Below, piece by piece: positions 1 to 10,637 of a DNA stretch of 64,000 nucleotides (the stretch's first letter is position 1; each line of letters starts with the position of its first letter). The DNA lies in assembly GCA_026705445.1 (NCBI GenBank), contig JAPPAR010000025.1:1-64000 (forward strand), given 5' to 3'. Under the pieces are notes generated by a model that saw only the letters and a list, made by a program, of their open reading frames with translations, was not told where the DNA came from and made no database searches. The DNA is from Candidatus Dadabacteria bacterium. Its GTDB lineage: Bacteria > Desulfobacterota_D > UBA1144 > Nemesobacterales > Nemesobacteraceae. Made by a program: the position numbers and the translations under genes.

Positions 1-201
1 CATGGCTGCTGACCCTAAAAACCCTTCCATATCCCTATGCGGTGAGAAATGCGGGCTAGAACATACTACGGTAGTAGCCAGTAGTCAATATTGCGCAATC
101 ATCAGACTTTTTCGCTGTCTTCGTTCCAAGCTTTCTGGTTTGTTCCGAAGACGGGGAATGCGCCCTGCCAGAATTGCCGCCCATTGCAGGTCCGAATCCT
201 C
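1..201. other. Non-coding flank downstream of the sterol methyltransferase
   Basis: I see no supported gene here. The plus-strand open frames that start in this stretch run antisense through the methyltransferase gene and look like shadows. A short perfect inverted repeat (TACTAC-G-GTAGTA, about 66-78) is present but has no T-run after it, so I do not call it a terminator. Confidence 0.5.
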
Positions 202-1224
202 CTATTCCGGCTTGCGGGCGTGGAAGAAATACATCGGGGTGAATATCCCGAGGCGCCCCGCTTCGGCGAAGGTTGCCGCAGTAAAGCTCAGAAGGTTGGA
301 AACCTCGGTTGTTCCGCGCGGCACGATTCTCAGCCGTTCAAGCAGCCAGAGCAGACCGTGGGTCAGTCGGCGCCCCACCGCGGAACTGCGAAAATTTGCA
401 AATGAAAGGCCCGATCCGACCATGGGCTGATACCATGGAATGCCCGGCGGGGCGTCGGCCGCTATATCGCGGGCCTCCACGAGTTCGAATCCGACTTTCC
501 GCAGGATGTCGTCCACCTCGTGCGTCATGGGGATATCCGGAAGAGCGCTGGCATACTCCATATCGGTCTTGAGCCGTCGGTGATCCGGGTCATCAGGGTT
601 AAACAGGTCAGTCATGCAACATTCGTAGACCGCCAGAGATCCGCCGGGCTTTAGCAGGCGGAAAATTTCGGCGTAAACCCCAGTCCTGTCCGGTGCGTGA
701 CAGGTCCCCTCAATGGAATAAGCGGCGTCGAAGGATGCGTCCGGTGCGTCGATTTCCATGAAATCGCAATGCAACCAGTCGGCCAGATGGCCAAGACCCG
801 CCGCCTCGCAGCGCTTCTCGGCCCGTTCGAGCTGCAGCGCATTGATGTTGACGCCCAGGATACGGGCGCCGGAGAAACGCGCAATCTCGATCAACGGGCC
901 GCCGACTCCGCAGCCCAGATCTATAGCCATCATTCCGGGCCTGAGGCCGAGCCTGAGGGCGATATAGTGTTCGTGCCGGGCAATCGACGCGGCAAAGCTT
1001 TCATTAGCCGCCCGCGAAGCGAAATGGATGGACTGCCCCCAGCCGTACTCGATAAAGTCGGTGGCGAGGTCGTACCAGGTTATTACGGGATTCCGGGAAT
1101 CCGTCTTGCTCTCGCCCGTACCTTCGTGCCCCGCGCCGCTAGGGTGACTTTTGAAACCCTCGATGCGCGTGGCGACATCGCCTGATTTTCCGCTTTTGAA
1201 GATGTCGGTGAGGTTCGATCCCAT
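202..1224 (-). CDS. Sterol 24-C-methyltransferase (Erg6/SMT family)
   Basis: This is a SAM-dependent methyltransferase of the Erg6/SMT family, which alkylates C-24 of the sterol side chain. From the ATG at 1224 (340 aa), the family regions appear in order: EYGWGQSIHF near residues 59-68 (family: YEYGWGxSFHF), the SAM-binding IDLGCGVGGP near 101-110, YSIEGTCHAP near 170-180 (family: YAIEATCHAP), then the C-terminal sterol-methyltransferase domain with PWYQPM and GIFTPMYFFHARKP at the very end. The frame can extend 25 codons upstream to a TTG at 1299, but the ATG gives the normal SMT length. It lies 111 nt downstream of dppF on the same strand and may be read through from it. No other sterol gene is in the window, so substrate (de novo or host-derived sterol) is unknown. 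Arginine codons are mostly CGN, unlike core neighbours. Confidence 0.85.
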   Translation of the reverse strand: MGSNLTDIFKSGKSGDVATRIEGFKSHPSGAGHEGTGESKTDSRNPVITWYDLATDFIEYGWGQSIHFASRAANESFAASIARHEHYIALRLGLRPGMMAIDLGCGVGGPLIEIARFSGARILGVNINALQLERAEKRCEAAGLGHLADWLHCDFMEIDAPDASFDAAYSIEGTCHAPDRTGVYAEIFRLLKPGGSLAVYECCMTDLFNPDDPDHRRLKTDMEYASALPDIPMTHEVDDILRKVGFELVEARDIAADAPPGIPWYQPMVGSGLSFANFRSSAVGRRLTHGLLWLLERLRIVPRGTTEVSNLLSFTAATFAEAGRLGIFTPMYFFHARKPE

Positions 1225-1335
1225 AATCAAAGTCCCGATTGATACGCCCGGAACATAACCGTCCATGCCCCGAAAATCAAAACTCCGGTCCGCTTTCAAG
1301 GAACATCCCGCACTGGGGACGGGGAAACGGACGGC

Positions 1336-2316
1336 TCAGACGTTATGACAGGCGACGCTGCGTCCGTCGGCTCCTTTTTTTTCCAGCCGCGGAGTCTCCC
1401 TTGAGCATACCTCCGTAGCCAGAGGACATCTCGGATGAAAACTGCAGCCCGAGGGAATATCCGCGAGATTCCTTATTTCTCCCGATACGGACGCTTCGCT
1501 GCCGTTTTCGCTCCCGGTTGTCCTTATCTCGGGGATTGCGGAGATAAGCATCCTGGTGTAGGGATGCGCGGGGTTTGAGTAGATATCGTCGCTTGAGGCA
1601 ATCTCGACTATTTTCCCAAGGTACATTACGGCCACAAGGTCGCTTACGTGCTTTACGACGCGGAGGTCATGGGATATGAAAAGGTAGGAAAGACCGTGTT
1701 TTTTCTGAAGATCCTTAAGCAGGTTTATTATCTGCGCCTGCACTGACACGTCAAGCGCCGAGACGGGCTCATCGCAGACAACAAATTTCGGGCGAAGAGA
1801 GATCGCGCGCGCTATTGCTATCCTCTGGCGCTGTCCCCCGCTGAACTCGTGAGGATAGCGACCCATGACGTCGGTTCCAAGACCTACCTCGCCGAGAAGC
1901 CGGACCACGAACTCGTGGCGTTCTTCCTTTTTTACCGTGTTGTGAATGCTTATTCCCTCAGAGACAAGCGAGCCCACGTTCATCCTGGGGTTAAGGGAAC
2001 CGTAGGGGTTCTGGAATATCATCTGCATTTCCCTTCTCAGGGAGCGAAGCCGAGCCGGGTCAAGTTCGGTGATGTCCTCTCCCTCAAAGAATATCTTCCC
2101 GGCGGTGGGAGCAAGAAGTCTCAGCACCGTTTTTCCAAGCGTCGTCTTGCCGCTGCCGCTCTCTCCCACAAGACCCACTGTACTGCCCCTTTCAATTTCA
2201 AGTTCTACTTCATCAACGGCACGTACATAGCTTGAAATTCTTGATAAAATACCCTTTCGGATCGGAAAGTACTTTTTAAGTTCTCTTACATTTAATATTG
2301 ATTCATTCATTTTCAT
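1336..2316 (-). CDS. dppF: Peptide ABC transporter ATP-binding protein DppF/OppF
   Basis: This is the second ATPase of a dipeptide/oligopeptide importer; it hydrolyses ATP on the cytoplasmic face of the DppBC channel. Walker A (GESGSGKTT, about residue 50), the signature (SGGQRQR), Walker B (FVVCDEPVSALD), the H-loop (ISHDL) and the C-terminal oligopeptide/dipeptide extension with the Cys motif (GCSFHPRCPLATEVC) are all visible. I use the ATG at 2316; the frame is open to 2370 but that part overlaps the higA end and has no family similarity. The start lacks a clear Shine-Dalgarno. In related operons dppF follows dppD directly; here 3.4 kb of restriction-modification and antitoxin genes separates them, so its expression may now depend on the upstream higA transcript. 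Confidence 0.93.
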   Translation of the reverse strand: MKMNESILNVRELKKYFPIRKGILSRISSYVRAVDEVELEIERGSTVGLVGESGSGKTTLGKTVLRLLAPTAGKIFFEGEDITELDPARLRSLRREMQMIFQNPYGSLNPRMNVGSLVSEGISIHNTVKKEERHEFVVRLLGEVGLGTDVMGRYPHEFSGGQRQRIAIARAISLRPKFVVCDEPVSALDVSVQAQIINLLKDLQKKHGLSYLFISHDLRVVKHVSDLVAVMYLGKIVEIASSDDIYSNPAHPYTRMLISAIPEIRTTGSENGSEASVSGEIRNLADIPSGCSFHPRCPLATEVCSRETPRLEKKGADGRSVACHNV

Positions 2317-2344
2317 AACTGAACAGACATAAATCAGTTCCGCG

Positions 2345-2650
2345 TTACGCCGCATTCTTTTCAGGTCCAAGGCTTTGAGCAGTTTCGCAACCCGACCTGA
2401 TCCGTGCCCGTCTAAGTTCCCATGACCTCTGCAGGTTAAGCCAGAGCCTCGGAGTCGTACAAAAATAACCGGACAAGCGTAGTGCCATGTCCTCTCTCAC
2501 GTCACAATGGCTGTTAAGAATCTTCGTGATCCGGTCTTTCGGCACCCTTAATTTTTTTGATAACTCGTCGATTGACAGCCCCAGCGCGTCAAGTTCCTGG
2601 CTAAGTATCTCACCCGGATGCACCGGCCTCATTCCGTTTACAGGGTTCAT
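2345..2650 (-). CDS. higA: HigA-family XRE antitoxin, orphan
   Basis: A 101-residue DNA-binding antitoxin of the HigA type. It has the family opening (MRPVHPGEILSQEL, residues 7-20), a helix-turn-helix around residues 25-50 and the C-terminal LWLNLQRSWELRRA stretch. The ATG at 2650 is preferred over the 2677 start because GGGAGAG lies just upstream of it. HigA normally follows a RelE-fold toxin gene, higB. The 137 nt upstream (2651-2787) is too short for one and I find no recognisable HigB residues there, so the toxin appears lost. It stops 28 nt before dppF and may be co-transcribed with it. Confidence 0.85.
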   Translation of the reverse strand: MNPVNGMRPVHPGEILSQELDALGLSIDELSKKLRVPKDRITKILNSHCDVREDMALRLSGYFCTTPRLWLNLQRSWELRRARIRSGCETAQSLGPEKNAA

Positions 2651-2787
2651 TCTCTGCTCTCCCTTGTTTAGCCCCAAACAGCAGGGTCGATAATAGGTTC
2701 AACCAGAACAGTATACGGGAAAACGGTTGTATAATTCCATCTTTACAGCGTCCTCACAAATAAAGCCAGGAGATTGGTCCTCATTAC

Positions 2788-3402
2788 TCAGGAACCTATG
2801 CCGATCAGTACTAGGGGAACTGGCGGCACTCCTCGCCCTTGCTTAAGCAGATTCAGCACTCCTCGTTCATAGCAAGGAACGCCAGAGGACATTTTCCGCT
2901 CCAGATCCTTCACAGGAAGTATCTCAATCCCCACGTCAATCATGTCAGAAACATAGGAACTGAGATGCTCGGCAAACAGTTCACGGGAGGTAAAAGCGTA
3001 ATCGTCAAACTGCAATTCCACCGCCACCCGACCTTTTGCAAAACAGGGCCGGTTATAATATCTTATCGCTTCATGTTCGGATCTTTTGATTCCACATCCT
3101 TTCTCATCTCCAGACATCCCGCGTACATTGCGAAGAAGATTTCCGTTGCGCATTACCCAGAATGCCGCCCTTCGCTGTTGCCACCCTCTGCTTTCAAAGC
3201 CATCTTTGAACCGTTTGCTGATTTCTTCAGGGGAAACCAGCAGGTTTTCCTGCTGCCCATCTTTTTCCGTAAAGACCCTGACTCGGCAAGCCTCGGCGTC
3301 AACGCTCTCTATCACAGTCCGTATGTCCGTCCATAGCTCCCCGTAGCGAACCAGCATACATTCCTCGCCGTTTAAGTGTGAATGACTAGATTTAATCTGC
3401 AT
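2788..3402 (-). CDS. BglII-type restriction endonuclease (first copy)
   Basis: A 204-residue protein resembling type II restriction endonucleases of the BglII family. A catalytic-type ExQ (VAVELQFDD, about residue 127) is followed by RELFAEHLSSY, DVGIEILPVK, SSGVPCYERG and the ending QGRGVPPVPLVLIGI, which matches the layout of the second endonuclease at 4858-5589 (ALEIEWNNKD, FDRDLENF, GVIVTRG, PLLLIGIP). I start at the ATG at 3402 because a strong GGAGGAGG lies 7-8 nt upstream; the frame continues to 3519 without family similarity. It faces away from the transposase and methyltransferase, and no cognate methyltransferase is next to it on its own strand. Specificity cannot be read from the sequence. 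Confidence 0.65.
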   Translation of the reverse strand: MQIKSSHSHLNGEECMLVRYGELWTDIRTVIESVDAEACRVRVFTEKDGQQENLLVSPEEISKRFKDGFESRGWQQRRAAFWVMRNGNLLRNVRGMSGDEKGCGIKRSEHEAIRYYNRPCFAKGRVAVELQFDDYAFTSRELFAEHLSSYVSDMIDVGIEILPVKDLERKMSSGVPCYERGVLNLLKQGRGVPPVPLVLIGIGS

Positions 3403-3577
3403 CGACAACCTCCTCCGGTTTTGCGGCATAGAAACCAGATACGAGATGGGAAAATACCAGATCCGGTTCTGCGAATCCAGTATCAGAATTGGAATATGCA
3501 CCCAGAGAATGAAGATCATTCAGGTCGCCCTTTCGGAAGAATACAGAAAACATTTCGGTTGCATATTGATTAGTCAA
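3392..3577 (-). CDS. Possible small ORF upstream of the first BglII-type gene
   Basis: A 61-codon frame with a TTG start overlaps the endonuclease start by 11 nt, an arrangement compatible with translational coupling. I recognise no family. A stop codon lies a few codons before the TTG, so it is not obviously the end of a longer gene. It could be a genuine small protein, the tail of a decayed gene, or chance. Confidence 0.2.
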   Translation of the reverse strand: MTNQYATEMFSVFFRKGDLNDLHSLGAYSNSDTGFAEPDLVFSHLVSGFYAAKPEEVVDAD

Positions 3578-3740
3578 CTCCCACGGATCAGAAGGCGAGA
3601 AGAATCAGGAAGGAGGCAAACATGCATATATAGATTTGATCAGCCTTATGAACATACGAGAGCTAAACGGATTAGCAAAAAAGATCGTAGGAACCCTCGA
3701 CATCTCCTTAATTTTTGGGTAAATTGCTTCCCGAAGTTTA
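3403..3740. other. Accessory intergenic region before the transposase remnant
   Basis: Apart from the doubtful 61-codon frame above, I see no gene. It is the divergent region between the minus-strand endonuclease and the plus-strand transposase and so probably holds promoters for both. I could not identify an IS1595-type terminal inverted repeat by eye. Confidence 0.4.
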
Positions 3741-4247
3741 ATGGAAGAAAAGATAATACCGAGCAAGAAAAACGGGGTCGTCGAGTCACTTCCTGAGGGA
3801 ACATCGCTAACAGAGATAATGAGGACGTTCCCTGATAACGCTACGGCTGAAAAATGGTTTGTTGAAAACCGCTGGCCAGACGGGATACACTGCCCGTGCT
3901 GCGGAGCGAAAAATATCCAGGAAAGAAAAACCCGTAAGCCTCAACCTTACCGTTGCCGTGATTGTCGCAAGGATTTCTCCGTCAAAACAGGGACGCTGAT
4001 GCATCATTCTAGGCTTGGACTTCAGGTTTGGGCGATAGCCATATATCTTCTTGTTACCAACCTCAAAGGTGTTTCCAGCATCAAACTCCATAGAGGTCTG
4101 GATATCACTCAAAAGAGCGCATGGCACTTGGCTCACCGCATAAGAGAGACTTGGAAGGAAAATAAAGACATGTTCCCTGGGCCTTTAGAATTTGATGAGA
4201 CCCTTACGGGTGGTAAAGGCCTTCCCTGTCAAGGACTGATCTCATGA
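3741..4247 (+). mobile_element. IS1595-family transposase, truncated after the first catalytic Asp
   Basis: The 168-residue product is the N-terminal half of an IS1595 (ISXO2-like) DDE transposase. A zinc ribbon is visible (CPCCG near residue 53 and YRCRDCRKDF near 73), then the conserved GTLMHHSRLGLQVWAIAIYL segment and LAHRIRETW. The first catalytic acidic motif (EFDETLTGGK) is reached at about residue 152 and the frame then ends within 15 residues. Intact members are about 300 residues, so the rest of the DDE domain is missing and the protein should be inactive. The stop overlaps the methyltransferase start (ATGA), so the remnant now serves as the leading cistron of the methyltransferase-endonuclease operon. 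Confidence 0.85.
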
Positions 4248-4861
4248 ATGAAGAATTATCACGGTATCTTAATGGCAGGAAATTCGGAACTGTACTAGCC
4301 GACCCTCCTTGGAGATTTCATAACAGAACCGGCAAGGTTGCCCCGGAACACCGCAGATTGTCGAGATATGACACCATGACATTCGAGGAGATAGCGGCAC
4401 TCCCTGTAAAGGACCATGTTGCCGACATTTCTCATTGTTATCTATGGATACCGAATGCGTTGCTCCCTTATGGTTTAGACATATTGGACGCTTGGGGCTT
4501 TGAATACAAAACAAATCTGATCTGGCACAAAATACGTAAAGACGGCGGGTCGGATGGAAGAGGCGTAGGATTTTACTTCCGAAATGTGACAGAAATCCTG
4601 TTATTCGGCGTTAGGGGGAAAAACGCCAGAACCCTTGCCCCGGGCAGAAGCCAGGTTAATTTGATAGCCAGCCGCAAAAGAGAGCATTCACGTAAACCTG
4701 ATGAGCAATATGATCTTATAGAGAGCTGTAGCCGGGGACCGTATCTTGAATTGTTTGGACGTGGCACCAGAGAGAAATGGGTAGTGTGGGGCAATCAGGC
4801 TAATGGAGACTATCAACCTGACTGGCCTACATACAAATACAATTCGACGGGTGCCGAGTGA
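4244..4861 (+). CDS. MT-A70 family adenine methyltransferase
   Basis: A 205-residue DNA N6-adenine methyltransferase of the MT-A70 class. The catalytic DPPW is at residues 20-23, followed by LWIPNALLPYGLDILDAWGF, the HKIRKDGG...GVGFYFRN region, TEILLFGVRGK and the C-terminal YDLIESCSRGPYLELFGRG, the usual order in this family. It overlaps the transposase remnant by 4 nt and the downstream BglII-type endonuclease by 4 nt (GTGA), so the three are read as one unit. The arrangement implies it protects host DNA from the 4858-5589 endonuclease. Confidence 0.9.
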   Translation: MNEELSRYLNGRKFGTVLADPPWRFHNRTGKVAPEHRRLSRYDTMTFEEIAALPVKDHVADISHCYLWIPNALLPYGLDILDAWGFEYKTNLIWHKIRKDGGSDGRGVGFYFRNVTEILLFGVRGKNARTLAPGRSQVNLIASRKREHSRKPDEQYDLIESCSRGPYLELFGRGTREKWVVWGNQANGDYQPDWPTYKYNSTGAE

Positions 4862-5589
4862 GCTTATCTTTACTGACGGATGCGGGATTTGATATTACCC
4901 ACAAAAACCACGCCTTAGCAGTTCTTGCCAGGGATTTTCCTGTACCATTTGAAGAATTATGTGAAGTGTTAACGGGCATAAGGATTGCGGATGTGGAACT
5001 GATACAGGGTGGAGGGGGCGAAGCAAGTTCCACTCAGAGACTGCGCAGAGATCTGACTGATAAAAACTGGGAGAAGCGCAGGATCACTATCAGAAAGACA
5101 GTGGACGAGCTGGAAAAGTTTTCAGTAACGCACGAAATTGACCATGTCAGAAGAACTGAGAATGGGACAATCGCTCTTGAAATAGAGTGGAATAATAAAG
5201 ACCCGTTCTTTGATCGCGACCTCGAGAATTTCCAGCGCATACATAAAGATGGGGTGATTAGCGCAGGCGTGATAGTGACTCGCGGCAGATCACTTCAAGA
5301 TAGCTTGGTCAAAATTGTGGCTGACTGCGCTTCACGCCACAACATCAGAGGATTTGAGGACTTATCCGTATTCGGAGTAAGTCCGACAAAACGACAACGT
5401 GACATGGTGAAAACCACAGGTGATGATTTCATAAAAGATTGGGCGCCTGTTTTCGTACGGGATAAATTTGGAAGGGCTACGACACACTGGGACAAGCTGC
5501 AGGACCGTATTGAAAGAGGTGTTGGAAATCCATGCCCGCTACTTCTCATAGGAATTCCGGCATCCGTAGTATACGAGGGAGAATTATAG
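4858..5589 (+). CDS. BglII-type restriction endonuclease (second copy)
   Basis: A 243-residue type II restriction enzyme of the BglII class, partner of the MT-A70 methyltransferase upstream. EIDHVRR near residue 97 and ALEIEWNNKDPFFDRDL near 111-127 form a PD-(D/E)xK-like D...ExE site; GVIVTRG near 140 and the terminal CPLLLIGIPASVVYEG complete the family pattern. The GTG start overlaps the methyltransferase stop. It shares residue layout with the divergent copy at 2788-3402 but is clearly different in sequence, so the two are not a recent duplication. Confidence 0.78.
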   Translation: MSLSLLTDAGFDITHKNHALAVLARDFPVPFEELCEVLTGIRIADVELIQGGGGEASSTQRLRRDLTDKNWEKRRITIRKTVDELEKFSVTHEIDHVRRTENGTIALEIEWNNKDPFFDRDLENFQRIHKDGVISAGVIVTRGRSLQDSLVKIVADCASRHNIRGFEDLSVFGVSPTKRQRDMVKTTGDDFIKDWAPVFVRDKFGRATTHWDKLQDRIERGVGNPCPLLLIGIPASVVYEGEL

Positions 5590-5794: not shown

Positions 5795-6787
5795 TTATTC
5801 CACCCCGTTTTCCAAAAACATCTCGTAGCGGAAACAGGCTGAACCGTGAGAATCAGAAACGCTGTAAAGGTCCGGCTGCGCCTCAAAACATTTCCCCTCC
5901 GCGTACTCGCAGCGGTTGTTGAACCTGCATCCCTCGGGGAACTCCCCGGGAGACGGAATCGTACCTCTGATCGAGTGAAGCTCCTCGCCCGCCGACTGTC
6001 CGGGAATCGAGTTTATAAGCCCTATCGTGTAGGGATGGGCAGGGGCGGAGAAAAGCTGCTTGACGCTTCCCTGCTCGACCACCTTCCCCGCGTAAATAAC
6101 ATAGACATCATCAGCAACGTTGGAGATAACCCCGAGGTCATGGGATATAAGCATGACCGCCATCCCCATCCTGTCCCGAAGGCTTTTTATAAGAGACAGA
6201 ATTCCCGCCTGGATGGTCACGTCAAGGGCGGTCGTAGGCTCATCGGCTATCAGCAGCTCGGGGCTGCAGGCAAGGGCCATAGCGATCATCACCCTCTGGC
6301 ACATTCCCCCGCTCATTTCGTGCGGGTAGCTCGAGTATCTCTCGGCGGGAGAGGGAATGCCGACTGTGTCTAGCAGATCAACCACTCTTTTCTTCTCCTC
6401 TTTCCTCGAGACGTTCTCATGAACCCTTATGACCTCGCCTATCTGGTCTCCCACGGTGTAAACGGGATTAAGGGAACTCATCGGTTCCTGGAATATCATG
6501 GAGATCCTGTTTCCGCGGTAATGCCTGAGTTCCCGCTCGGTGAGCGAAAGTAGGTTTTCTCCCTTGTATATAACCTCCCCCGAGTTCACCCTGGCAGGCG
6601 GCACGGGCAAAAGCCCCATGACAGAAAGAGCTGTGAGGGTTTTTCCGCAGCCGCTTTCCCCTACGACCCCGACTATCCTCCCCTCTCCTATACTGAGGCT
6701 CACGTCTCCCAGGACTTCAAGCTCCCCGCCCTCTGAGGGAAAGGACACGTTAAGGTTTTTTATCTCAAGCAGCTCTGAATTCGCCAT
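5795..6787 (-). CDS. dppD: Peptide ABC transporter ATP-binding protein DppD/OppD
   Basis: First ATPase of the peptide importer, 330 residues. Walker A (GESGCGKT, near residue 45), the Q-loop ([12 protein letters not shown]), a signature SGGMCQRV (canonical SGGMRQRV has Arg in place of this Cys), Walker B ([12 protein letters not shown]), the H-loop (ISHDLGV) and the C-terminal peptide-transporter Cys motif ([14 protein letters not shown]) are present. It lies 9 nt downstream of dppC in the same operon. The restriction-modification block begins 35 nt past its stop, so the insertion fell exactly between the two ATPase genes. Confidence 0.94.
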
Positions 6788-6796
6788 TGCGTAATA

Positions 6797-7795
6797 TTAT
6801 CTTTCCTTTAGCTTGGGGTCTATCGCGTTTCTGAATCCTTCCCCCACCAGATTAAGAGCCGTAACCGTCACGAAAATCGCAAGCCCGGGGAAAAGAACAA
6901 GCCACCACGCGAAATCCACGTACTTCTGGGACTGCGAGATTATCTCTCCCCAGCTGGGTTCCGGGGGCGTCACCCCGAACCCGAGAAAGCTGAGACTCGA
7001 TTCAACCAGTATCGCTCCCGCCACTCCGAAGGTGGCGCTCACCAGAACGGGCGCGAGAGCGTTTGGAAGCATGTGTTTTAGTATAATCCTGCGGTCGCCG
7101 CTTCCAAGCGCCCACGCAGCCTCGACGTAGTTCGTCTGGCGAAGCTTAAGGAACTCCCCGCGAACGAGCCTCGCCACGCCCGTCCAGCCCGTTATGCCTA
7201 TCACTATCATGATGTTATAAATGCTGGGCTCAGTAAAGGCGAGGATGGTGAGAATCAGGAAGAAAACGGGGAAAGTGATCATCACCTCTATCAGCCTTGA
7301 AATCGCAAAATCAATCCAGCCGCCGTAATAACCCGCGACCGCTCCCAGTATTATTCCTATCACCATGGCTATCCCGACTGCGACCACTCCTATCGAGAGC
7401 GATATCCTCGCTCCGTGAATCATCCTGCTGAGAACGTCCCTTCCCCTGTCGTCCGTGCCGAGAAAATGGTTCCCGTCGGGAGCCGAGAGAACGGAGAAGA
7501 AATCGCTTTCCGTGGGACTGTACTTTACGGGGGGGAAAATCGCGAACGAATCCGGATCGTCAAGATACATGCCCCGAAGGTCCTCTCCGCGAAACTCGGG
7601 ATAATCGATAACCACGGGGAAATAGTACTTGCCCTCCTCAACGAGCACTATGGGCCTGTTGCCCGCGAGGAAACTTTCAAAAAGCGCCGTCACCGCGAGG
7701 AGGATTATGAAAAAAAACGAGACATACGCGAGGGAGTCCTTCTTGAACTCGATCCATACCCTGTCCCAGTACCCGACGCCTGAGCCCTGCTTCAT
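6797..7795 (-). CDS. dppC: Peptide ABC transporter permease DppC/OppC
   Basis: Inner-membrane permease of the peptide importer, 332 residues. There is one N-terminal membrane segment (about residues 22-42), then a roughly 70-residue extracytoplasmic stretch, the HFLGTDDRGRDVLSR motif typical of OppC N-domains, and five further membrane segments. The EAA coupling loop (EAAWALGSGDRRIILKHMLPN, about residues 225-245) docks the ATPases. It overlaps dppB by 4 nt and is followed closely by dppD. Confidence 0.93.
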   Translation of the reverse strand: MKQGSGVGYWDRVWIEFKKDSLAYVSFFFIILLAVTALFESFLAGNRPIVLVEEGKYYFPVVIDYPEFRGEDLRGMYLDDPDSFAIFPPVKYSPTESDFFSVLSAPDGNHFLGTDDRGRDVLSRMIHGARISLSIGVVAVGIAMVIGIILGAVAGYYGGWIDFAISRLIEVMITFPVFFLILTILAFTEPSIYNIMIVIGITGWTGVARLVRGEFLKLRQTNYVEAAWALGSGDRRIILKHMLPNALAPVLVSATFGVAGAILVESSLSFLGFGVTPPEPSWGEIISQSQKYVDFAWWLVLFPGLAIFVTVTALNLVGEGFRNAIDPKLKER

Positions 7796-8793
7796 GACTT
7801 CCTCTCAAAGCCGATCCTGGGGTCAACCACGGCGTAGGTTAAATCCGATATGAGAATGCCGATCAGGGTAAGGAAAGCGGAGATGGTGGCGACGGCCATT
7901 ATTACTGGGTAGTCCCTTGAAAGCACGGACTCAAATCCCAGCCTTCCTATCCCGGGGATCGAAAAGATGGTCTCTATGATAACGCTTCCCCCTATCATGG
8001 CGGGAAGAATCGAGGCGATTATCGTAACTATGGGAATAAGCGAATTCCTGAGAGCGTGCTTGAAAAGCACCCTGTTTGGCGCAAGTCCCTTGGCCCTGGC
8101 TGTCCTTATGTAATCCTCCCGGAGCACTTCAAGCAGGCTTCCCTTCTGGTAGCGCGAAAGCGATGCGAGGGAGGCGTAGGTAAGGCAGAACACGGGGAGA
8201 ACAAGATGCCACAGGAAATCGAGGGTTCTCTCGAGAAAAGGAAGGTCCTCGTATCCCCTCGAGTGCACTCCGTATATTGGGAAGATATCAAAAGCTCCCC
8301 CGCCGCCGAAGAAATAGATAAGCACCACGGCCATCCAGAAGCTCGGAATCGAGTAGAGGAGAAAAAGAACGAAAGTCGTTGCGCGCTCCGCAAAACTCCA
8401 CTGCCTAACGGCTGACCAGGCCCCGATCGGTATGGCTAACAGGTACACGAGGAAGATCGAAAGAGCGTTCAGTATGAGGGTGATCGGGAGTCTTTCCGCT
8501 ATCTTGTCTATTACCGGGCGGTGGTCCTTGTAGGAATTTCCGAAATCAAGCGTCACGATCTGGCCGAGCCAGATGAAATACCTCTCGTGAACGGGCTTAT
8601 CGAGACCGTAGAGTTTTTTGGTCTGCTCGACTATCTCCTTGGTCACCTGATCGCTTTTTATTCCCTGATCAAGCGACATCCTGCTCTCAACGGGGCTCCC
8701 CGGGGCAAGCTGTATCACCAGGAAAGTGATAAGGGTGATCCCGAACAGCGTGGGAATCATCAGCAGAAGTCTTTTCAGGATATAGTCCTTCAT
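7792..8793 (-). CDS. dppB: Peptide ABC transporter permease DppB/OppB
   Basis: Inner-membrane permease pairing with DppC, 333 residues. It opens with the family N-terminus (KRLLLMIPTLFGITLITF), has six predicted membrane helices and an EAA loop around YIRTARAKGLAPNRVLFKHALRN. In related operons it follows the binding-protein gene; here dppA is 7.3 kb upstream, beyond AbiE, decarboxylase, dehydrogenase and HipAB genes. An AT-rich stretch with a TATAAT (minus strand, 8833-8838) lies upstream and may be a replacement -10 element, without a good -35. A decayed partial copy of this gene lies at 10826-11000. Confidence 0.93.
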   Translation of the reverse strand: MKDYILKRLLLMIPTLFGITLITFLVIQLAPGSPVESRMSLDQGIKSDQVTKEIVEQTKKLYGLDKPVHERYFIWLGQIVTLDFGNSYKDHRPVIDKIAERLPITLILNALSIFLVYLLAIPIGAWSAVRQWSFAERATTFVLFLLYSIPSFWMAVVLIYFFGGGGAFDIFPIYGVHSRGYEDLPFLERTLDFLWHLVLPVFCLTYASLASLSRYQKGSLLEVLREDYIRTARAKGLAPNRVLFKHALRNSLIPIVTIIASILPAMIGGSVIIETIFSIPGIGRLGFESVLSRDYPVIMAVATISAFLTLIGILISDLTYAVVDPRIGFERKS

Positions 8794-8919: not shown

Positions 8920-9843
8920 TCAGATGGTATCGTGGATATATGGATTGTCCCTGAGTACCCGTACCAGTTTCCTTACGGCTTCGCCTCGTTTACCACGACT
9001 CATTCTGTCAAGATTGATCCGCTTCCAGAGAATCGCGGGCAAGTTCCTCGCATCGGGAAAAGGAAGCAGGTTCCAGTCCGGCTCCCCTTCATTAAACCCG
9101 ACGAGAAAAGCCCTGTGGCGCTCCGTGAGGGCAATTAGAATTCTCCCCGGCAGCGCAAGCTGGGTTTCGAGCAGGTTCTCAAGGCTCACATCGATTCTCG
9201 CCATCCCCGCAAAACGATGATGATAAAGGTTCCTTATGTCCTGAATTCTGGGATCAAGCACCTCATGAGTCGGCTTGCGATGGCTGACCAGATAAACGAC
9301 AAAAGCGTCAAGTATCTCACGAGTAAGCGCTGCGCCTCTTTTAAAAAACAACCAAACATCGAATATGTCCCGCGGATGCTGTCTCTGCAGGGCCGCGCAG
9401 AATTTGCCCGCGTAAAGCTCCGCCTCCGAGAGGCAGTTTATCTTCATGCTCCCGCCGAACTCTTTTTCAAGCAACGGACACAAGGGCATCCTGACCGGCG
9501 GCAGCAAGGTTCCTCGCACCACTTCGTTAACTTCGATCTTAACCAGCATGCCGTCTTTTCTTACCAAGGCCTTAAAATTCTCCTGGATGTCCACTTCCGC
9601 CCCGGACAAGAATTTTCTGATCTCAGACCTGATCGCTTCCATGTTCTCACGGATATCGCGAAACGCTTCGTCGCGGCCGTTAAGCGGCAGGTAGCAGAGA
9701 TCGATGTCCACGGAAAGCCTCGGGCAATTCCGGAAGAAGAAATTGATGGCCGTGCCTCCCTTGAGAGCGAACACCTCCTGTCCGGCGGCAATCCGCAACG
9801 TCTCAAGCAGCAAGTCCGATTGCCTTCGATACGCTTCCGTCAT
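8920..9843 (-). CDS. abiEii: AbiEii-type nucleotidyltransferase toxin
   Basis: A 307-residue toxin of the AbiEii/AbiGii family, which acts as a nucleotidyltransferase in type IV toxin-antitoxin systems and in abortive phage infection. The DNA polymerase beta-like motif is visible as GGTAINFFF (about residues 29-37) followed by SVDIDL (44-49), and the later RDIFDVWLFFK (about 180-190) matches the conserved second region. The ATG overlaps the antitoxin stop by 4 nt. It ends 126 nt before dppB. Both active-site aspartates are intact, so it is probably functional. Confidence 0.9.
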   Translation of the reverse strand: MTEAYRRQSDLLLETLRIAAGQEVFALKGGTAINFFFRNCPRLSVDIDLCYLPLNGRDEAFRDIRENMEAIRSEIRKFLSGAEVDIQENFKALVRKDGMLVKIEVNEVVRGTLLPPVRMPLCPLLEKEFGGSMKINCLSEAELYAGKFCAALQRQHPRDIFDVWLFFKRGAALTREILDAFVVYLVSHRKPTHEVLDPRIQDIRNLYHHRFAGMARIDVSLENLLETQLALPGRILIALTERHRAFLVGFNEGEPDWNLLPFPDARNLPAILWKRINLDRMSRGKRGEAVRKLVRVLRDNPYIHDTI

Positions 9844-10637
9844 GAATCCATCCAGATTTCGGGAACCGTTATCTTGAATCTCGAGTTCCAGAGTCCGCCG
9901 CTTACAACATGTCGGCTCCCTGAACCGAGATTAACGGACCCCAGGTTCAGTTCACGGTACCATTCGTGACTGACAATCTCCGCCAAGGCAAGAAACAGCC
10001 GCTTTGCCTTTACCGACCTGCACGCAAGCAGGATGCTTTGCACCATCTCAGGGCGCAATGTCGCTAGGCCTTCCATAAGCTGCCTGGCTTCCTCGAAATC
10101 CGCGTGGTTCGGCAGCAGGTAGCAGTACTCAAGCATGGCCCGTTCGGGAGAGCTTATTTCGAGCGAGAACTCCCCGGCACGCCAGTTGGTCACGCCCGCT
10201 GAAACCGGGTCAAACAGCGCATCGGCGTTAAGAATGCGCAGGTTTGCGGCAAACGGTTGACGCGTAAACCACTGGGGCAGTTTCCTTTCGGACCCGACGG
10301 CTAGCTGTAGAACGGGGCTTGCTCCAAGCGGCAGGTAATGCAGTCGCCCCTGATACCCAAGCGCCGTACACGCCGCGGGGTAAACGGTTACGGAACGCTG
10401 CCGTTGCAAAGCGTAGATGGATCCTGACAAGGTAGGTTCCGTTCCAGCCCTCATCCATGCCCCTCTGCCAATAGGACTCAGCCACCCGCTGCTCTTGTAG
10501 CCCTGCAGCAGCTGGGGGGAAACCCGTTGCAAGGCTAGCCACCCGCTGGTCATGGGAACACCCGGGGGATTCTGGGCAAGCACGCGATTGATTCTGGTTC
10601 CCCGTGGCGTTTCATACTGTGTTTCTACGTAGCTCAT
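9840..10637 (-). CDS. abiEi: AbiEi-type antitoxin / autorepressor
   Basis: The 265-residue upstream partner of the AbiEii toxin. An N-terminal winged-helix region (RVLAQNPPGVPMTSGWLALQ..., residues 18-60) carries the GWLSPIGRGAW turn usual in AbiEi proteins, and the C-terminal half contains SPERAMLEYCYLLP, matching the family's conserved antitoxin domain. AbiEi proteins bind inverted repeats in their own promoter; a candidate is at 10752-10767. Gene order antitoxin-toxin with a 4 nt overlap is standard. Confidence 0.87.
   Translation of the reverse strand: MSYVETQYETPRGTRINRVLAQNPPGVPMTSGWLALQRVSPQLLQGYKSSGWLSPIGRGAWMRAGTEPTLSGSIYALQRQRSVTVYPAACTALGYQGRLHYLPLGASPVLQLAVGSERKLPQWFTRQPFAANLRILNADALFDPVSAGVTNWRAGEFSLEISSPERAMLEYCYLLPNHADFEEARQLMEGLATLRPEMVQSILLACRSVKAKRLFLALAEIVSHEWYRELNLGSVNLGSGSRHVVSGGLWNSRFKITVPEIWMDS

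Follow-up and report, generated by a model that had tools for sequence, protein, structure and literature searches.

A candidate sterol C-24 methyltransferase and a putative sterol-remodelling gene cluster in a genus of Dadabacteria

Sterol methyltransferases (SMTs) move a methyl group from S-adenosylmethionine (SAM) to C-24 of a Δ24 sterol. The stretch of Candidatus Dadabacteria DNA analysed here (the window: 64,000 nucleotides at the start of one contig) carries close to its first base a gene of this family, which we term SMT-A, and this raises the question of what its product would do in a bacterium that appears unable to make sterols. Our answer is that SMT-A is probably a horizontally acquired, SAM-dependent sterol C-24 methyltransferase in a non-synthesising bacterium that would remodel and methylate imported sterols. 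The results behind this reading are the family membership and intact frame of SMT-A, its placement in a tree, its acquisition at the site, a resident gene cluster conserved in the genus and the absence of genes for sterol synthesis; from these we infer the uptake and source of the sterols, the site of methylation, the order of the steps and a role of the products in membranes or symbiosis.

The SMT-A protein and its relatives

The frame of SMT-A is intact: it runs on the minus strand from 1224 to 202, stop codon included, and encodes 340 residues. Its N-terminus is unsure because alternative in-frame starts lie upstream at 1266 and 1299. The gene and its conserved regions are:

202..1224, minus strand: SMT-A, sterol C-24 methyltransferase family protein, 340 aa (Pfam and tree)
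205..399, minus strand: Sterol_MT_C domain (aa 276-340), sterol-methyltransferase-specific and C-terminal (Pfam)
607..630, minus strand: SMT region IV, VYECCMTD (aa 199-206), with Cys for the Trp of YEW(V/C)MTD
691..720, minus strand: SMT region III, YSIEGTCHAP (aa 169-178)
895..924, minus strand: SAM-binding motif IDLGCGVGGP (aa 101-110)
1021..1056, minus strand: SMT region I, FIEYGWGQSIHF (aa 57-68), with Ile where yeast Erg6 has Tyr81

Pfam recovers both the Sterol_MT_C domain (78.4 bits, cut-off 21.7) and the Methyltransf_11 core (70.6 bits, cut-off 21.2), and the protein has a class I methyltransferase core with an LDxGCGxGGP-type motif; among the 25 NCBIfam matches listed, no model reached its cut-off. 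The original prediction had named this gene a bacterial SMT on the strength of four motifs (EYGWGQSIHF, GCGVGGP, YSIEGTCHAP and GIFTPMYFF), all of which are found in the translation, and the two domains, the motif regions and the tree position described below agree with that identification. Regions I, III and IV, with the consensus YEYGWG, IEATCHAP and YEWxMTD, read IEYGWG, IEGTCHAP and YECCMTD in SMT-A. Our comparisons with eukaryotes used yeast and Arabidopsis SMT sequences and count only as leads: SMT-A is 46% (plant) and 41% (yeast) identical to them, and against yeast Erg6, 383 residues long with YEYGWG at 81, it has an Ile at Tyr81 of region I and EG for EA in region III. The motif regions and the C-terminal domain are thus common to SMT-A and the eukaryotic SMT1/Erg6 proteins; the latter, however, lie outside the bacterial group of the tree and differ from SMT-A in regions I, III and IV. 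Given the region I Ile and the region IV Cys, the activity or product of SMT-A may differ from that of standard SMTs.

In a scan of named bacterial genomes, 29 loci (L059-L087) were clearly of the SMT type; nearly all of their frames scored above 275 bits in a profile comparison, with other methyltransferases reaching at most 166. We built a maximum-likelihood tree of 57 rows, which included cyanobacterial and actinobacterial methyltransferases. In it SMT-A, its copy in the sister genome G012 and an incomplete SMT of a Chloroflexota MAG (57% identical to SMT-A over 220 residues) form a supported clade (99/97) inside the bacterial SMTs; the cyanobacterial and actinobacterial proteins fall outside the SMTs and far from SMT-A. 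The tree check proposed with the original prediction therefore puts SMT-A within bacterial SMTs and away from small-molecule methyltransferases. Viral contigs held no SMT, only distant matches to the methyltransferase core. One SMT-bearing record among the named relatives cites a sponge in its title (Spongia_Bin9), and the MAG series RHO, IRC, CAR and SB06xx among the SMT-bearing genomes are presumably sponge-derived.

Active bacterial SMTs have already been published: SMTs from uncultured bacteria methylate desmosterol in assays and gave products ranging from 24-methyl to 24-isopropyl, and one of the enzymes assayed came from a Chlamydiae MAG that has no further genes of sterol biosynthesis (Brown et al., 2023; PMC10070321). 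Hence, the SMT-A gene by itself is a further member of a known family. It has the same domains and the same bacterial placement as these SMTs of uncultured and sponge-associated bacteria; its identity of about 39-57% is to the remaining bacterial SMTs of this analysis and not to the assayed sequences.

It is conceivable, though in our judgement unlikely, that SMT-A is an SMT-derived methyltransferase now acting on some other small lipid, such as an isoprenoid, a quinone side chain or a fatty acid. The substitutions in regions I and IV would fit such a shift, and PDB sequence and fold searches point the same way, in that they returned general class I methyltransferases, the nearest folds being small-molecule methyltransferases, along with a 231-residue chain named 24-sterol C-methyltransferase; no solved SMT of full fold was among the matches. 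The fold comparison adds little, since the predicted structure of SMT-A is of no more than fair quality (mean pLDDT 69.9). On the other hand, the C-terminal sterol domain is complete, SMT-A stands far from other methyltransferases in the tree and the same genome holds sterol-type reductase, Rieske and P450 genes, all of which argue for a sterol substrate.

The resident cluster and the absence of sterol synthesis genes

The window genome (G000; 1.78 Mb, 97.6% complete, 48 contigs) has three SMT genes: SMT-A and, on contig C35, SMT-B (333 aa, 50% identical to SMT-A) and SMT-C. Proteins of the SMT-C type are without the Tyr-Glu of region I, and their product may differ for this reason. SMT-C is frameshifted in the window genome, with one A missing from an A-run, and in the sister genome G009 it has TAG where G012 reads CAG; this interruption may be real decay or, in the window genome, an assembly error. 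The one-base deletion and the nonsense codon lie close together (L007:10329-11365 and L050:18772-19830).

The other components on C35 are: an ERG4/ERG24 sterol reductase (113.9 bits), for which the closest solved structure is 4quv, a delta-14 sterol reductase; a GPP34-P450 fusion (L139:2729-4747) whose P450 part is closest to CYP51 and CYP3A; a Rieske oxygenase carrying a C-terminal KshA domain (Pfam); an LkcE-type FAD oxidase; and an MMPL (RND) pump that matches the sterol-sensing domain weakly (24.5 bits, cut-off 22.3). Most of this cluster recurs in the sister genomes G002, G003, G006, G007, G009, G010 and G012. In G012 it is adjoined by a porin, a LolA-like/DUF1329 protein and an additional MMPL, whose sterol-sensing domain is clearer (46.6 bits) than that of the C35 pump, and a beta-oxidation operon lies beside these transporter genes. 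The cluster also encloses a group of genes (L007:11576-17596), most of them assigned by eye, for two STAS proteins, a histidine kinase and an RsbW-like kinase, together with a PP2C response regulator and a LivK-like binding protein; the majority recur with it across the genus and possibly constitute a regulatory switch.

Thirteen of the 14 genomes of the genus contain Sterol_MT_C, each with between one and four matches. Of the 134 genomes outside the genus a single distant one has the domain, and it was found in none of those sampled from the rest of the family or order. In this sample of relatives 10 of the 14 SMT-positive genomes carry the GPP34-P450 fusion versus none of the 134 SMT-negative ones, and 26 of the 29 named SMT-bearing genomes have it too; a literature search for the fusion found nothing relevant. 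The original prediction saw no sterol synthesis genes around SMT-A and proposed searching the rest of the genome for squalene epoxidase and oxidosqualene cyclase. Both are absent from the 14 genomes of the genus: PF13243 (squalene/oxidosqualene cyclase, C-terminal domain), the squalene epoxidase domain and the squalene/phytoene synthase domain each gave 0/14. The same searches found these families in control genomes, and the 14 include G007, a single 1.59-Mb contig rated 91% complete. The claim thus holds for synthesis; genes for sterol modification are present, in the cluster on C35. These gene contents support the picture of a bacterium that would be without de novo sterol synthesis.

With the synthesis genes missing, SMT-A should depend on import for its substrate, either directly or after conversion of imported sterols of the cholesterol type by the P450, Rieske or FAD enzymes; a putative action on host sterol, as originally suggested, is likely and is the best reading of the gene content. 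Sterols would be taken up from a eukaryotic host or the surroundings via the porin, the LolA-like/DUF1329 protein and the RND pumps, and would be remodelled by the resident P450, Rieske oxygenase, FAD oxidase and ERG4/ERG24-type reductase; the side chain of Δ24 sterols would then be methylated by up to three SMTs. The cluster could also serve another polycyclic lipid.

We regard it as distinctly improbable that the locus serves to break sterols down for carbon and that the SMT is incidental to this. The KshA-like domain of the Rieske protein agrees with such a role, as does the beta-oxidation operon neighbouring the transporter genes of the sister genome, which might be a hint of lipid breakdown in the genus. 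Methylation, however, adds carbon, the ERG4/ERG24 reductase is of a biosynthetic type, and an HsaC-type extradiol dioxygenase (2,3-dihydroxybiphenyl dioxygenase-type, TIGR03213) was found in none of the 14 genomes, in a search for degradation genes that covered the HsaC type only.

Returning to the remodelling and methylation of imported sterols, the less expected element is the locus, not the gene: unlike the SMTs of PMC10070321, those reported here number up to four per genome across a genus and occur with a non-synthesising remodelling and transport cluster. The steroid clusters of Ircinia symbionts, which occur in MAGs from many phyla and for which horizontal transfer has been reported, likewise combine an ERG24-type reductase with an SMT (PMC9531527). 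They hold lanosterol synthase and CYP51, whereas the genus studied here has no cyclase and has the GPP34-P450, Rieske and FAD genes instead. A putative sterol-remodelling locus shared across a genus that lacks sterol synthesis is a variant worth following. The literature searched had no description of such a cyclase-free, genus-wide locus, which is not proof of absence, and a search for Dadabacteria together with sterol returned nothing relevant.

The insertion site of SMT-A

The genes that follow SMT-A in the window are:

1336..2370, minus strand: dppF-like peptide transporter ATPase, the left flank of the SMT-A insertion
2345..5589: block splitting dppF from dppD, with a small HigA-like ORF (assigned by eye, without a Pfam match), a BglII-type endonuclease, IS1595, an MT-A70 methylase and a second BglII-type endonuclease
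5795..8793, minus strand: dppD, dppC and dppB, full length

SMT-A is an extra copy that interrupts the junction of dppF with the DUF177-fab genes. Six sister genomes (G002, G003, G006, G007, G009 and G010) have dppF and, about 50-115 bases later, DUF177 and the fab genes, with no SMT-A between them; the insertion after dppF is restricted to the window genome and G012, where an unknown 316-aa ORF stands between SMT-A and DUF177. Positions 56-3397 of the window are 99.55% identical to G012. The composition of the gene is likewise deviant: its GC is 0.599, whereas the 35 window genes measured stand at 0.527 +/- 0.026 and reach 0.576 at most, and CGN codons make up 83% of its arginine codons, compared with 41 +/- 18% in window genes. 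The acquisition proposed earlier from the arginine codons is thus backed by both compositional measures and by a site that is empty in six sister genomes. That SMT-A is an assembly artefact from another organism, as its position 202 bases from the contig end and its GC could suggest, is barely credible: this reading, contamination included, is largely refuted by the 99% identical copy in G012, which is internal (43.7 kb into a 56-kb contig) and lies between the same dppF and DUF177-fab genes.

The description of the neighbouring peptide transporter as broken did not stand: each of dppB, dppC, dppD and dppF has its full length, and the operon is only split, through the insertion of genes of restriction-modification and transposase type. 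Within the inserted block (window 2788-5589), oppositely oriented BglII-type endonuclease genes flank the IS1595 zinc-ribbon protein and the MT-A70 methylase, and an AbiEi/AbiEii-like pair, recognised by eye at 8920-10637, adjoins the dpp operon, making this a defence-rich spot.

Two kinds of SMT genome across phyla

The named SMT-bearing genomes fall into two kinds. A cyclase match of 155-204 bits is present in one of 14 genomes of the diverged clade (SMT-C type) and in 11 of the 14 remaining ones (Fisher p = 0.0003, which is only a guide as the genomes are draft and related). We read this class of matches as putative oxidosqualene cyclases; many of the frames are 1145-1581 residues long, which fits a candidate fused epoxidase-cyclase form. 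Several diverged-clade SMT loci, from Chloroflexota and Gemmatimonadota, also hold counterparts of the C35 genes for the GPP34-P450, Rieske and FAD proteins, at 56-77% identity, and one or more of these genes are found near an SMT in other phyla too. The sharing of so similar a gene set by several phyla suggests transfer between them.

We offer, as a tentative proposal in which our confidence is low, that several phyla share a horizontally moving, cyclase-free sterol-remodelling set that would work on scavenged sterols, comprising a diverged SMT (with the YE of region I lost), the GPP34-P450, the KshA-like Rieske oxygenase, the FAD oxidase and sometimes the ERG4/ERG24-type reductase; the diverged SMTs might carry out alkylations that have no assigned enzyme, for example C-26 methylation. 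Alkylated steranes from old rocks are taken to record eukaryotes, sponges included, and bacteria that modify sterols without synthesising them, if real, would be a further and hard-to-see source of such side chains. The gene set provides a concrete list of enzymes that can be assayed, including candidates for such orphan alkylations.

One Bacteroidota MAG has an SMT (L078:9219-10211) close to SMT-C of the window genome and of G012, which may reflect transfer or mis-binning.
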